Positions 204-47,857 of a stretch of 58,186 nt of DNA are shown here, one piece after another. The notes below the pieces were generated by a model. It was not told where the DNA came from and ran no database searches. It saw nothing but the letters and a program-made list of their open reading frames with translations. The position numbers and the translations under genes are program-made. How positions within the stretch are numbered: the first letter of the stretch is position 1; each line of letters begins with the position of its first letter. This DNA comes from Deltaproteobacteria bacterium (GTDB lineage Bacteria > Desulfobacterota > DSM-4660 > Desulfatiglandales > Desulfatiglandaceae): the NCBI GenBank assembly GCA_019307945.1, contig JAFDIS010000016.1:1-58186 (forward strand). The letters run 5' to 3'.

Positions 204-268
204 GCTCAATTTGGGTTGGAAATAGTACAGGAAATTCTCTCGTTAAAACTTGAAGCGCCTTATCGCTG

Positions 269-1201
269 TCAGGCCCTTTCGCCCCTCAGCGCCTGGTAGG
301 CCTCCGCCCCGACTGATGCACAGATAACGACCATGGCCACCACCTGCCACACGGTGAGTCCCTGCCCCAGGAATACCACGGCCAGGAAGGCCGCGATCAC
401 CGGTTTGAGGAAAAAGATATAGCTGCCCCGGGTGATATCGGGCACCGCCGCGAGCCCCCCGATCCAGAGGAACTGGGTAATGGTGGTGTTGTAAAGCGAA
501 AGAGTCAGGAGTGCCGCCACCTGCCCCCCTGCCCTGGCGAACAGGGTGGCGGGATTGACCCAGATCCCCCAGAAAACGCCCACCACGAGCCACAGGCCCA
601 CTGCACCCATGAACATGGTGATTGCCGTGATGCGCAGCGCGCCGTAACGCCCGATGATGGGCCGCACCATGACCGTGTACAGGCTCACCACGGCCGCACA
701 ACCCACGGCCATGAAGACCCCAACCAGGTTGCGTGCTTCGCCTGCCAGCTTTGCCAGATACCCGTCTGTAATGAGCAGGGCCACGCCCAGCATGGCGCAC
801 ACCCCGCTGATGATCTTGGGGGTACCGAAAGGCTGGCGGTTGACCCAGAGGTTCGCCAGGCCCACGAAGATGGGGATGGTGGTGACCATGGTGGCCACCT
901 GGGACACGGTGGCGAAATCCAGGGACCAATGGAAAAGGAGGTAACCCAGGCTCACGCCGAGGATGGAAAGCCACACAAGGCGCAGGCCTTCCCGCTTGAA
1001 CGGTTCCAGGAGGTTCCGAGAGGAGGGCATGATGAGTGCCAGAATCACGAGTCCCGCGCCTCCCAGCAGAAACCTCCACACGGAAAGCTCTGGTCCCTTG
1101 ACCCCGCTCAGGACGGAAACGAATTCGCTCGAGGCGTGACCGCACACGCCCAGGAACACGGCCAGGTAGGCCACCCACGCGTACTTGTGCCAGAGACCCA
1201 T
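269..1201 (-). CDS. DMT-superfamily (EamA) permease
   Basis: This is a 310-residue integral membrane protein with about ten hydrophobic segments arranged as two repeated EamA halves, the usual build of drug/metabolite exporters. Its substrate cannot be read from sequence. The start at 1201 (MGLWHKYAW) is chosen because AAGGAGATATA lies just upstream and the first membrane helix follows directly. A longer open frame reaching 1339 adds an Arg/Cys-rich stretch overlapping a GC-rich palindrome and is unlikely to be translated. The gene stands alone, downstream of and in the same direction as the UvrA gene, about 430 bp away. Confidence 0.85.
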   Translation of the reverse strand: MGLWHKYAWVAYLAVFLGVCGHASSEFVSVLSGVKGPELSVWRFLLGGAGLVILALIMPSSRNLLEPFKREGLRLVWLSILGVSLGYLLFHWSLDFATVSQVATMVTTIPIFVGLANLWVNRQPFGTPKIISGVCAMLGVALLITDGYLAKLAGEARNLVGVFMAVGCAAVVSLYTVMVRPIIGRYGALRITAITMFMGAVGLWLVVGVFWGIWVNPATLFARAGGQVAALLTLSLYNTTITQFLWIGGLAAVPDITRGSYIFFLKPVIAAFLAVVFLGQGLTVWQVVAMVVICASVGAEAYQALRGERA

Positions 1202-43113: not shown

Positions 43114-43264
43114 GTTCCACCCCGCTCATTAAGGTTAATAGATTTTAGATATAATCGGTTATTTTTTTGTTCAGTGAAAGAATTTTTTCCAATGCAAAGA
43201 ATTTTCTGATGAGAAATTTGTTTGAAAAGGCACGAGGAAAGGCCGTCCCGCCCCCCCTCACCCG

Positions 43265-43640
43265 GATGTTGTCGGCCTCCGCAAGTATGTACCGACGCAA
43301 GAGGCAAGAAATGAAAGGCTCACAACCGCACATCAGGGGGCCCGAGGGGCGGGATGGTTTCCGTAGCGGCGTGTTTTTGCCCGGTGAGGCATGGACGCCG
43401 AACGGGCAAAAACAGCAGCTCCCGAGACACGATGTCGAGGGAGCGAAGCGGAGGAAATCATACCGACCCCCGCGCCCTCCCCCCAAAGAAGCTCCAGAGA
43501 CCACAACACCACCATGATGTTATCGGCCTTCGGAAGTACGTGCCCACGCAAGAGGCAAGAAATAAAAGGCTCTCAACCGCACATCAGGGGGCCCGAGGGG
43601 CGGGATGGTTTCCGAAAGCGGCGTGTTTTTGCCCGGGGAG
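43265..43640. repeat. Two direct repeat units of about 124 bp
   Basis: 43265-43388 and 43516-43640 align over their length with few mismatches and one base of length difference. Both contain CGCAAGAGGCAAGAAAT, CCGCACATCAGGGGGCCCG and GCGTGTTTTTGCCCGG. Between them GTTTTTGCCCG (43373-43383) pairs perfectly with CGGGCAAAAAC (43403-43413). No reading frame is convincing, so the 43114-43820 gap is non-coding, perhaps a structured RNA or the trace of a duplicated element. Confidence 0.65.
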
Positions 43641-43820: not shown

Positions 43821-45488
43821 TTAACGGGCCGCCAGCACCTGAGCCACTTTGCGACCCAGTTCGTCACTGCTGAAGGGTTTCTGGACAAAGGCCACTCCCT
43901 CGGGGAGCACCCCCCTGCGCGCTATCACATCCGCCGTGTAGCCCGACATGTAGAGCACTTTGATTCCGGGCTTGATCGCCTCCATCCGCTCCTTTAGTTC
44001 CTTTCCGTTCATCCCGGGCATGACAACGTCCGTGAGCAGGAGGTGGATGGGCCCATCGTGCTGCTCCGAAAGCCTGATCGCCTCTTCCGGCCGGGGCGCG
44101 GTTATAACCCGGTAGCCCAGCTTCTTGAGGATGATTTTTCCAAGCTCCAGGATCTGGGGGTCGTCTTCCACCACAAGGACCGTCTGACCGGCGGCAGCCG
44201 GTACCGGGGTCTTTCCCGGTGTCTCTTCCCGGGCACTCCCCTCGTGCCGGGGCAAATAGATCTTGAAGGTCGTTCCCCTGCCGGGCTCGCTGTAGACGTT
44301 GATGCCGCCTTTGTTCTGTTTCACGATGCCGTACACGGTGGAAAGCCCCAGCCCGGTGCCCCTGCCCTCTTCCTTTGTCGTGAAAAAGGGCTCAAAGATT
44401 TTCTCCAGGGTCTCGGGGTCCATGCCGCACCCCGTGTCGCTGAACACCAGCATCACGTACTGCCCCGGCTTGCACCGGGCGAACTCCGCCTCGTACCCGT
44501 CGGCCAGGGTCTTGTTGCCGGTCTCTATGGTGATGGTGCCCACCCCCTCAATGGCGTCCCGCGCGTTCACCGCCAGGTTTGCGAGAATCTGGTCCACCTG
44601 TGAAGGGTCCATATAAACGGACCAGAGGTCCTCACCGGCTATAAACCGAACCTCCACGTCTTCCCCCACCAGGCGGCCCAGCATCTTAAGGCTGTCTTCC
44701 ACCAGCCGGTTGAGATTCAATACCCGGGGGGAGGCGGTCTGACGCCTGGCAAAGGCCAGGAGCTGGCGCACCAGCCCCGCCGAACGTCTGGCCGCCTTGA
44801 GGATCTCTCCCAGGTCCTTTCGCACGGGGTGGTCGCGCTCCAGGCGCTCCATGGCGAGATCCCCGTACCCGGTGATGATGCTCAGCATGTTGTTGAAATC
44901 GTGGGCCACGCCCCCCGCAAGCCTCCCCACGGCCTCCATCTTCTGGGCCTGCCGTAGCTGGACCTCCAGGGCCTCGCGCTCGGCCTGGGCCCTTCGCTCG
45001 GCCGTAATGTCCGATAGGATGTGGACAGCCCCGGAAAACGCGCCGTCGTCATCCAGCAGGGGGTCCACGCTCACCCGGAAAACCCGATCGCCCAGCGAAA
45101 GCACGATTTGCTCCCGCTGGAGGCTCTTCTTGGTAAGCTCAAAGGGGCATCCCTCCGGGGGGCAATGGGTTCCGTGCACCACCTCCCAGCATCTCCGGCC
45201 CTCGACTTCACCCGCCTTTTTGCCGAATACCTCCAGAACGGCGCGGTTGTACCGAAGCACCCGCCGGTCCGCATCCAGGAGCATGATGGTGTCGGAGACC
45301 GCATTAAAAACCGTCTCCCACTGCCGGACTGATCTAGCAAGTGCCTTTTTGAGGGCCTCCACGCGCAGTATATAGGTCTTGTCCTCACCAATGAGGACGT
45401 CCACCTCGCCCCGCCTGATGGCCGAAAGGGTCTCCTCCGCAAGGGCGAGCCTTCGTTTCAGCTCCTTGTAGCCGGGTTCCTTGCTCAC
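43821..45488 (-). CDS. PAS histidine kinase with C-terminal receiver domain, Kai-linked
   Basis: A 555-residue hybrid kinase. In order: a short N-terminal coil (LALAEETLSAIRRGEVDVLI), a PAS domain (about 55-165) including the Cys-rich HGTHCPPEGCPF, HisKA with the phospho-His in GGVAHDFNN (about 195), HATPase (NLAVNARDA, DTGCGMD, GTGLGL) and a receiver with LVVEDD, the phospho-Asp in LLTDVVMPGMNG and QKPF. No membrane segment, so a cytosolic sensor. The start is GTG at 45488 overlapping the kaiB stop, i.e. tight coupling. By position it is probably the output kinase of the KaiC/KaiB pair. Confidence 0.9.
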   Translation of the reverse strand: MSKEPGYKELKRRLALAEETLSAIRRGEVDVLIGEDKTYILRVEALKKALARSVRQWETVFNAVSDTIMLLDADRRVLRYNRAVLEVFGKKAGEVEGRRCWEVVHGTHCPPEGCPFELTKKSLQREQIVLSLGDRVFRVSVDPLLDDDGAFSGAVHILSDITAERRAQAEREALEVQLRQAQKMEAVGRLAGGVAHDFNNMLSIITGYGDLAMERLERDHPVRKDLGEILKAARRSAGLVRQLLAFARRQTASPRVLNLNRLVEDSLKMLGRLVGEDVEVRFIAGEDLWSVYMDPSQVDQILANLAVNARDAIEGVGTITIETGNKTLADGYEAEFARCKPGQYVMLVFSDTGCGMDPETLEKIFEPFFTTKEEGRGTGLGLSTVYGIVKQNKGGINVYSEPGRGTTFKIYLPRHEGSAREETPGKTPVPAAAGQTVLVVEDDPQILELGKIILKKLGYRVITAPRPEEAIRLSEQHDGPIHLLLTDVVMPGMNGKELKERMEAIKPGIKVLYMSGYTADVIARRGVLPEGVAFVQKPFSSDELGRKVAQVLAAR

Positions 45489-45796
45489 GCATCTTCTCCT
45501 TCTTCGGGAAGACCCAGGGCCTCCAGGACCTTGCGCACGTCCCGCAGGGAACCGATGATGGTGATCGGGGGCTCGGGCGGCGCAATGATCAGCGTGGGGG
45601 CCACAAGCACATTGTTCTCAATGGCCGCCTGGAAGTCTTCCAGGACGTCCACCACCTCCACGGTGGCGCGGCCCTTGAGGCGGGTTTCGCAGAGGTGGCG
45701 CACCGTGTCCCTGGCCTTCCTGGAGTTGGGCTCCTCACCCGCCACGAAGAGCCTCAGGTGATAGGTTTTTCCATTCGTAAAACCTTTCGCTGACAT
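45485..45796 (-). CDS. kaiB: KaiB-like thioredoxin-fold protein
   Basis: The 103 residues match KaiB: YHLRLFVAGEEPNSRKARDT at the N-terminus, then VVDVLEDFQAAIENNVLVAP and TLIIAPPEPPITIIGSLRD. KaiB binds the KaiC ring and, in cyanobacteria, resets its phosphorylation cycle; the role outside cyanobacteria is less defined. ATG 45796 follows GTGAGGATGCA and lies seven bases after the KaiC stop. The longer frame to 45907 overlaps kaiC and is not needed. Confidence 0.9.
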   Translation of the reverse strand: MSAKGFTNGKTYHLRLFVAGEEPNSRKARDTVRHLCETRLKGRATVEVVDVLEDFQAAIENNVLVAPTLIIAPPEPPITIIGSLRDVRKVLEALGLPEEGEDA

Positions 45797-45803
45797 TGCA
45801 TCC

Positions 45804-47516
45804 TCACTGCCCGCGGGGCCCCGGGCCGTTCTTTTCACCGCCCCGCATTCGCACGATTCGTTCCCGGTCTTCCCGGACCCTTTTCCACTCCATGTCCAGG
45901 GCGGCAAGCTCCGCCTGCGCCTCCTGCAGTTCCGCCTCCAGCCGTGCCTTGAGGCTTTCGATCTCCGCGCGCTTGGCGCGCCGCGTCAATTCCAAGCGCT
46001 CCAGTTCCAGGGCGTCGGCTGACTCGCGGATCTTTCGGGCCGTGCCCGTGAGCACACCGCCTGCGCCCGCGTAGAAGTCCTGGATCATGAGGCCCTGCTT
46101 CGTGATCACGAACTCGCGGAACTGGTTGGAATGGGCCATGCCCCTGCCCTTGACCACCTGGATGGCCCGGTTCGTCTCGCCGTCCCCCTGGACGTAGGTG
46201 ATGAAGATCACCGTGTCGATCATGGAGGAGATGTCGTTGCCCGAAATCTCCAGTTGGCTCTTGGCCCCGCTGGTCTGGTTCGTGAGGAACACGGTGATAC
46301 CCCGGGTCTTGAGGAAGTGGAGGGTCCGCATGAGGTATTCCATGGCGGCCCGCTTTCCGCCCATGCGCTCGCAGGCGGAGATGGCGTCCAGGATGACGTG
46401 TTGGGGATCGGTGCGTTCCACCCGGTCCATGAGAAACAGGAGGTGCTCCTCCGCGCCCATGGCCTCGGGCATGAGGGCCTCAATGTCCAGGAGGCCCGCC
46501 TCCCGGTGGGGCTGAAGGTCCACGCCCGCGCTCCGCACGTTCTGCACCAGGGCCTCTGCGGATTCCTCGAAGCTCAGGTAGAACACGCGCTCGCCCGCCT
46601 TGCAGGCCCGGGCCGAAAAGGCGGAGGCCACGAGGGTCTTTCCGGTGCCGGGCTCCCCCGCCACGACCACGCAGGATCCTCGAAAGTAACCCCCTTCCAG
46701 GAGGGCGTCGAGGCGGTCGATCCCGGTGGGGAGTTTATCGCCAAAGGGCTGGTGGTCCAGGAGCAGGCCGGTCACGGGCACCAGGCGGAACCCGTCTTCG
46801 GTGATCACGTAGGGGTACTCGTTGCGGCCGAAGCTCGCCCCCCGGTACTTGACCACCCGGAGCCTGCGCGTGGCCACCTGGGCCACCACGCGGACCTCCA
46901 GGTCGACCACGCAGTCCGCCATGGAGTAAAAGAATTCCTGGAACTCCCGGGCGGGTTCGGTCTCGCGGGGCTTGAGGGTAAGGAGGGCGGTGAGGCCCGA
47001 GTCCTTGAGCCATCCATTGAGCAGATGGAGTTGGGCACGGACGCTGGCAGGCTCGTCGAAGAGCCGCAGGAGGACGTCCATGGCGTCCAAGACGATGCGG
47101 CGGGCCCCCATCTCCCGTGCCTTTCCGGAGATGATGCCCAAGAGCCCCTTGAGGCTGAATTCGCCGCTCAGGACCGCGTCGGGTTCGATCCCGCTCTGAA
47201 GGAGAAACAGGCGGCCCTGGGATTCCAGGGCCGCCAGGTCCCAGCCCAGGGTGGCCGCATTTTCCCGGACCTCCTCGGCGGGCTCCTCGAACCCGATGAA
47301 GATGCCGGGTTCGCCCGCAAGCGCCCCCCGGTAGAGGAACTCGAGGCCCAGGACCGTCTTGCCGCTTCCCGGGGCCCCGATCACCACGCTGGTGCGGCCC
47401 CGGGGAAAACCACCCTCCAGGATCTGGTCCAGTCCCTCGATCCCCGTTGGAATCTTTTTGAGGGGCACTCTGCCCCGCATCTCCCCAGCAAACGTCTGAT
47501 TCCGCTCATTCGTCAT
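45804..47516 (-). CDS. kaiC: KaiC-like double-domain RecA-family ATPase
   Basis: The 570-residue protein has two KaiC domains. CI has Walker A GAPGSGKT (about 47-54) and the Glu pair in FIGFEEPAEEV. CII has GEPGTGKT (about 285) and YLSFEESAEAL. The segment GNDISSMIDTVIFITYV aligns with the Ser431/Thr432 phospho-site region of cyanobacterial KaiC and offers two Ser (about 430-431), so autophosphorylation is plausible. A C-terminal coiled coil (about 505-560, LELERLELTRRAKRAEIESL) replaces the A-loop tail; no KaiA is seen. ATG 47516 has GAGGTGA upstream; GTG 47522 is also possible. First gene of kaiC-kaiB-kinase. Confidence 0.93.
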   Translation of the reverse strand: MTNERNQTFAGEMRGRVPLKKIPTGIEGLDQILEGGFPRGRTSVVIGAPGSGKTVLGLEFLYRGALAGEPGIFIGFEEPAEEVRENAATLGWDLAALESQGRLFLLQSGIEPDAVLSGEFSLKGLLGIISGKAREMGARRIVLDAMDVLLRLFDEPASVRAQLHLLNGWLKDSGLTALLTLKPRETEPAREFQEFFYSMADCVVDLEVRVVAQVATRRLRVVKYRGASFGRNEYPYVITEDGFRLVPVTGLLLDHQPFGDKLPTGIDRLDALLEGGYFRGSCVVVAGEPGTGKTLVASAFSARACKAGERVFYLSFEESAEALVQNVRSAGVDLQPHREAGLLDIEALMPEAMGAEEHLLFLMDRVERTDPQHVILDAISACERMGGKRAAMEYLMRTLHFLKTRGITVFLTNQTSGAKSQLEISGNDISSMIDTVIFITYVQGDGETNRAIQVVKGRGMAHSNQFREFVITKQGLMIQDFYAGAGGVLTGTARKIRESADALELERLELTRRAKRAEIESLKARLEAELQEAQAELAALDMEWKRVREDRERIVRMRGGEKNGPGPRGQ

Positions 47517-47857
47517 GGTCACCTCGCGCGTGAGAGTTCTTGTGGGGTGTGTTGGGCGGCTCCTGTTAGCCTTCGGGGCTGGAAGAGATCCTCCTCTGAA
47601 GGGAACAGGGACCGCCTGCGGAACTTTTGCCGCCTGAAAGGCCCAAGATTATTATCTTAACTTGATCCTCCAGACCTTTTCAAGGATTTTTCCCCGGGCT
47701 CAGGCCCCACCGGGGAACACCGGGCACGAATCCCGGGCAGGAGGCGCGGTCCAACGGGCCGGGATTTACGATTGACGGCACCTGTCCTGATCTCCTACCC
47801 TGTGGAGGCTCGATCCACATGCCGTCCTTTCCCCCGGCGCCGGAAACGGAGGAACGC
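47517..47857. other. Divergent intergenic region, kaiC / cation efflux
   Basis: These 341 bases hold no convincing gene. An AT-rich patch AAGATTATTATCTTAACTTG (47643-47662), containing the inverted repeat AAGAT-N4-ATCTT, is the likely kai promoter or operator area. I do not see a clean -35/-10 pair. Confidence 0.4.

Follow-up and report, generated by a model that had tools for sequence, protein, structure and literature searches.

A conserved N-terminal kinase module as a candidate output coupling of a KaiA-free kaiC-kaiB operon

The window analysed here, a stretch of 58,186 nucleotides (contig JAFDIS010000016.1) from a deltaproteobacterium of the phylum Desulfobacterota, contains kaiC, kaiB and a hybrid histidine kinase gene on the minus strand, packed into one tight transcription unit (Table 1). 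An earlier sequence-only reading had described these genes as an operon joined by a 7-bp gap and a GTGA overlap, and both the coordinates and the junctions were borne out by the sequence. Judged from sequence comparison, the family assignments of all three proteins are secure. No kaiA gene was found within the operon; a genome-wide search for KaiA was not made. How KaiA-free KaiB-KaiC timers outside cyanobacteria transfer their signal to the cell is an open question, and most work has been done on KaiC itself. The part of the operon that is worth following is a short module at the N-terminus of the kinase, which was overlooked in the earlier reading and is its most informative part. As this module occurs almost only beside kaiC or kaiB, and on very different output proteins, it makes a good candidate for the so far missing link between such simple timers and the cell.

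The kinase contains a PAS domain, HisKA (with His196) and HATPase_c domains and a receiver domain (with Asp487), so that its earlier description as a PAS kinase with receiver holds. A SasA-type KaiB-like N-terminal domain was not detected, as Pfam gave no KaiB match in the kinase, and the protein scored 396.9 bits against the NCBIfam CckA model (cut-off 1000), the likeness being limited to the kinase core. Kinases encoded behind kaiB vary in catalytic class but are alike at their N-terminus, where they share a module of 40 residues with the pattern L..RL.EAEETL.AIR.GEVDALVV. A profile of this module (A1; 24 rows, 40 positions) corresponded to no Pfam or NCBIfam family and gave no convincing PDB match; a match to a periplasmic binding protein (E 0.009) covered positions 12-31 only and was judged to be due to chance. 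In 75 non-redundant module copies Asp30 (numbering of the operon kinase) is invariant, and the other conserved positions (Leu, Arg, Ala, Glu, Leu/Ile, Ala, Gly) are retained in about 81-97%. We found no description of the module, or of a link between sigma-54 and Kai, in the literature, but subscription papers and supplements lay outside this search, and the novelty of the module is therefore provisional.

To describe its distribution we counted matches with an E value below 1e-5 as strong (numbers with G, C and L are our labels for genomes, contigs and loci). The operon kinase itself matched profile A1 with E 7.2e-16, the sole convincing match in a source genome that has 66 HATPase_c matches, the next-best profile matches being partial and weak. 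Among 297 genomes of the same phylum there were 29 strong matches, 26 of which adjoin an independently found KaiB. Of the other three, the G036 module lies behind a fused remnant of the KaiC CI domain and the end of KaiB, the G103 module is degenerate (GEGDG) and belongs to a relative without KaiB, and the third is an orphan in G231. Since most kai loci of this phylum were used to build the profile, the informative part here is the scarcity of matches elsewhere. In the remnant of G036 (L119, 5680-6186), part of KaiC CI continues in frame into the KaiB end, and the module kinase downstream is intact. In a second phylum, that of G297 (299 genomes), eight of nine matches lay at kaiC-kaiB loci, the ninth being weak and partial. 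A held-out test used the phylum of G301, with 396 genomes that had played no part in building the profile (G301 itself was not counted). Of 26 matches, 22 adjoin a clear kaiB, one a weak kaiB (L178) and one kaiC (L160), and the remaining two have neither gene within 1.5 kb. Under a random draw from the kinases of a genome the probability of this result is below 1e-24, with the share of kinases beside kaiB set at 1 in 66 and also when raised to 1 in 20. Conversely, when loci were chosen independently of the module, 37 of 40 kaiC-first loci carried it, compared to none of five kaiB-first loci. A plasmid search with module consensus peptides yielded three records, all at kai loci, although low-complexity filtering limits this test.

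The proteins that carry the module differ widely. Besides the operon kinase and many other hybrid HisKA kinases, they comprise HisKA kinases without PAS (L042, L044), the HWE kinase of Rhodobacter sphaeroides (Cereibacter), HisKA_3 kinases (L047, L162, L164, L173, L175), sigma-54 activators (L050, L063, L067) and a GGDEF-EAL protein (L154). The activator of L050 (377-1798), located behind kaiC-kaiB, has two tandem module copies and no kinase domain, and this Kai system is apparently wired straight to transcription. In L067 (1881-7737) a single operon combines kaiC, three kaiB-like genes, a module kinase and a module sigma-54 activator. An apparent KaiB-kinase fusion in L064 was dropped, as it spans a run of undetermined bases. 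The segment could also be no more than a signalling helix or PAS cap that marks a single ancient kinase lineage, kept in kai operons by common descent, in which case it would make no contact with Kai and the kinase would mainly read its own PAS ligand. It does precede PAS directly in most copies and starts with a long amphipathic helix, and in a co-inherited operon association alone is no sign of contact. However, the segment is joined to catalytic classes that are unrelated to each other (HWE, HisKA, HisKA_3, sigma-54 AAA+ and GGDEF-EAL), it also occurs where no PAS follows (L042, L044, and L050 with its two copies), and hardly any other kinase in these genomes has it, so that we regard this explanation as unlikely. 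Being attached to other output enzymes elsewhere, the module would act as an exchangeable plug. We lean towards the view that this undescribed domain of about 40 residues is a general output plug of KaiC2-type, KaiA-free systems. It would dock on the KaiC or KaiC-KaiB ring and would have been transferred to kinases of the HisKA, HWE and HisKA_3 classes, to sigma-54 activators and to GGDEF-EAL enzymes. If this is true, one timer design would drive phosphorelays, direct transcription and second-messenger turnover across several phyla. With such a short output-marking module, outputs could be found by sequence and the processes under their control predicted.

The gene directly upstream of the module is nearly always kaiB, and KaiB might be the only protein that the module binds, for instance in its fold-switched form after release from KaiC; the kinase would then sense free KaiB and not the KaiC ring. 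In the Aminicenantes genome G301, however, the reading frame of the module and the end of kaiC overlap, and a search of the assembly yielded no KaiB. This would point to KaiC, and not KaiB, as the partner, but the hint is weak, since the contig ends there. L160 likewise adjoins kaiC, with no kaiB in the stretch examined. Binding to KaiB alone is rather improbable.

Several observations weigh against a function of the module in Kai coupling. A few copies are located away from kai genes, including L180, L181 and an orphan on contig C303 of G231, a genome with several kai operons, and the module is missing from three of about 40 kaiC-first loci (L039, L051, L053). Genomic neighbourhood is no proof of contact. 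Moreover, the AlphaFold2 model of the kinase has low confidence over the module and gives no confident fold; this is compatible with a segment that becomes folded upon binding, and just as well with a shallow alignment.

Table 1. Features of the kaiC-kaiB-kinase operon and the evidence for each (nucleotide positions in the window; residues of the respective protein)
Feature	Position	Strand	Evidence
kaiC, KaiC2-like, 570 aa	45804..47516	(-)	PF06745, PRK09302, 8DBA as best PDB relative, tree
KaiC ATPase domains, two, RecA-type	residues about 22-245 and 257-480	(-)	Pfam
Presumed KaiC phospho-site, Ser430-Ser431 codons	46224..46229	(-)	alignment to T. elongatus S431/T432 and R. sphaeroides KaiC Ser-Ser pair
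KaiC C-terminal helix, presumed coiled coil	45843..46040, residues 493-558	(-)	AlphaFold2; collinear with 8DBA tail
kaiC-kaiB gap, 7 bp	45797..45803	(-)	sequence
kaiB, 103 aa	45485..45796	(-)	PF07689 E 3.6e-15; PDB KaiB relatives E 1e-14
GTGA overlap, kaiB stop/kinase start	45485..45488	(-)	sequence
Hybrid histidine kinase, 555 aa, GTG start	43821..45488	(-)	Pfam HisKA, HATPase_c, Response_reg, PAS_4
Kai-associated N-terminal module	45351..45470, residues 7-46	(-)	profile A1; invariant Asp30
PAS domain	44991..45308, residues 61-166	(-)	Pfam PAS_4 E 3.3e-12
HisKA + HATPase_c, His196	44247..44927, residues 188-414	(-)	Pfam
Receiver domain, Asp487	43848..44180, residues 437-547	(-)	Pfam Response_reg
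Promoter-like site TTGAAA-18-TAAGAT upstream of kaiC	47654..47683	(-)	weak, consensus match alone

In agreement with the two ATPase domains and the Ser-Ser pair proposed earlier, PF06745 (KaiC) matched KaiC twice (E 2.5e-99), and Ser430-Ser431 aligned to S431/T432 of Thermosynechococcus elongatus KaiC. The protein passed the cut-off of the NCBIfam equivalog PRK09302 (508.6 bits versus 408) and stayed below that of TIGR02655, the KaiC1/cyanobacterial circ_KaiC model (293 versus 546), having a Ser-Ser instead of a Ser-Thr site. Aligned to the T. elongatus protein, it retains both Walker A loops and both pairs of catalytic glutamates, and the R-linker of CI, which serves as KaiC2 criterion (PMC5520375), is absent, with Ala-Thr where Arg217-Arg218 is expected. 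The long coiled-coil tail noticed earlier is also present as a prediction, in the form of a helix of 66 residues (493-558) with AlphaFold2 predicted local distance difference test (pLDDT) scores of 64-83, taken by block, across most of its length, but it is a known feature whose structure has already been solved. The best PDB relative, R. sphaeroides KaiC (8DBA, E 3.7e-114), aligns through the tail. A heptad-periodicity test of the tail gave p 0.14, which says little, as R. sphaeroides KaiC, whose coiled coil is established, fails this test as well. KaiB exceeded the Pfam KaiB gathering score (55.9 bits versus 27) and remained below the cyanobacterial equivalogs TIGR02654 (63 versus 145) and PRK09301 (64 versus 110). 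The source genome encodes a second KaiC on contig C97 (G000; L077, 911-2398), which is 495 aa long, has a Ser-Phe site and 28% identity, and has receiver and kinase genes but no kaiB as neighbours. It was rejected as part of the operon's system, being of a different type (Ser-Phe site, no KaiB adjoining).

A tree of 57 KaiC proteins split a kaiC-first group (support 0.984) from a kaiB-first Ser-Thr group that includes T. elongatus KaiC (0.988). Wherever the pattern could read the site, the kaiC-first group has Ser-Ser, except for L072, which has Ser-Thr. The operon's KaiC falls on the R. sphaeroides side, apart from T. elongatus KaiC (0.984), in a sister subclade. Its closest companions are an Aminicenantes protein and two relatives from its own phylum (support 1.0), and the subclade around it (support 0.792) includes Gallionella-type betaproteobacteria, separate from R. 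sphaeroides. The betaproteobacterial KaiCs of this subclade stop before the tail, yet their loci retain the kinase module, indicating that the module is independent of the KaiC coiled coil. In the R. sphaeroides-like subclade, two different kaiB genes often stand in tandem (L057-L064, L066, L156-L179). At L143 (6632-17590) two KaiC proteins are encoded next to each other, one of the kaiB-first Ser-Thr and one of the kaiC-first Ser-Ser kind, and three module proteins are encoded around them.

With regard to the surroundings of the operon, the kaiC start was set at the ATG at 47516, and an alternative GTG start at 47522 is possible. Of promoter-like sites such as the weak one listed upstream of kaiC (Table 1), two were found versus 0.5 expected. 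A 509-aa open frame antisense to kaiC (46131-47660, plus strand) is probably a by-product of G+C-rich codon usage. Directly downstream of the kinase gene there are two direct repeats of 105 nt (43259-43363 and 43510-43614) that are 90% identical and 251 nt apart.

Taken together, the operon is probably a KaiC2-type KaiBC timer or switch with its own output kinase, in which the module acts as the coupling to Kai, and it most likely works as an energy-state or hourglass timer of this type. The sequence-only reading of a KaiA-free KaiBC switch that feeds a kinase remains the best one, and a shared pathway is supported by how closely the genes are packed, but other genomes have this arrangement too. 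Judged by its R. sphaeroides homologue, KaiC would autophosphorylate its Ser pair without KaiA, its tails would join two hexamers into a dodecamer, and KaiB would bind one KaiC state and help to reset it. The ATP/ADP ratio would set the phase, making the system an hourglass or energy gauge and not a free-running clock. From the association data we infer that the 40-residue module is a docking module, which would carry the state of KaiC or of the KaiC-KaiB complex to the kinase by binding the Kai complex and switching the kinase through the PAS linker. The signal may then pass via His196 and Asp487 to a further partner. That the system feeds directly into a phosphorelay, as had been proposed, fits the hybrid nature of the kinase but goes beyond what the operon contains, since no histidine phosphotransfer (HPt) protein or partner regulator was seen within it.

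It is possible, although we doubt it, that the operon is a stress or metabolic switch and no timer, with KaiC reporting the ATP/ADP ratio instantly and without hourglass delay. The organism appears to be non-phototrophic, and its genome gave no match for a heme-copper oxidase, with which its earlier designation as an anaerobe is consistent, but no more than that; in addition, a stress role has been reported for a Legionella KaiC2 homologue, as cited in PMC5520375. Against this, the KaiC2 of R. sphaeroides, which shares the tail and the Ser pair, is phosphorylated and dephosphorylated slowly, with kinetics that suit an hourglass (PMC10076222). Decayed relatives exist, such as the kaiC-kaiB relic of G036, but the catalytic motifs are intact in all three proteins and the spacing is tight, making it very improbable that the locus is a non-functional remnant.

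Taken alone, the architecture of the operon is ordinary: it is already known and represents the usual KaiC2 context. According to a survey (PMC3164672), nearly every kaiC-kaiB cluster outside the cyanobacteria is directly followed by a gene for a histidine kinase or a GGDEF/EAL protein, a kaiC-kaiB-PAS kinase operon has been figured for Rhodopseudomonas palustris (PMC4794148), and R. sphaeroides and rhizobial plasmids show the same kaiC-kaiB-kinase order, Pararhizobium with tandem kaiB. The operon thus adds one more case to a type already described. Its closest studied counterpart is the KaiBC hourglass of R. sphaeroides (PMC10076222; NC_011962), where KaiC needs no KaiA to autophosphorylate and is sensitive to the ATP/ADP ratio, and where its tail forms a 12-helix bundle that links two hexamers. 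Such a C-terminal extension, along with a pair of serines, has been described as occurring mostly in KaiC2 (PMC10076222). Both systems have the kaiC-kaiB-kinase order with gaps of a few bases, the Ser-Ser site and the C-terminal coiled coil; neither operon includes KaiA, and the two kinases share the N-terminal module. However, R. sphaeroides KaiC is only about 41% identical to the operon's KaiC and belongs to another subclade, and its kinase is of the HWE type without receiver, whereas the operon kinase is of the HisKA type with receiver and has one PAS-like region fewer. With the same operon, R. sphaeroides is a tractable host for a deletion and binding experiment on the module. The R. palustris operon shares the three-gene order, a presumed single promoter and a longer KaiC C-terminus (PMC4794148), but belongs to an alphaproteobacterial phototroph. 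Cyanobacterial SasA is likewise a histidine kinase that reads the Kai state via its N-terminus, through a KaiB-like domain where the operon kinase has the 40-residue module. Finally, the RtaNt domain of the Ramlibacter kaiC-HK family (PMC3164672) is a conserved N-terminal domain of kinases adjoining kaiC that has been proposed to bind KaiC. By its description it is set apart from the module, as it resembles receiver, SasA and KaiB sequences and comes from kaiB-less Ser-Tyr loci, whereas the module is shorter and comes from kaiC-kaiB loci.

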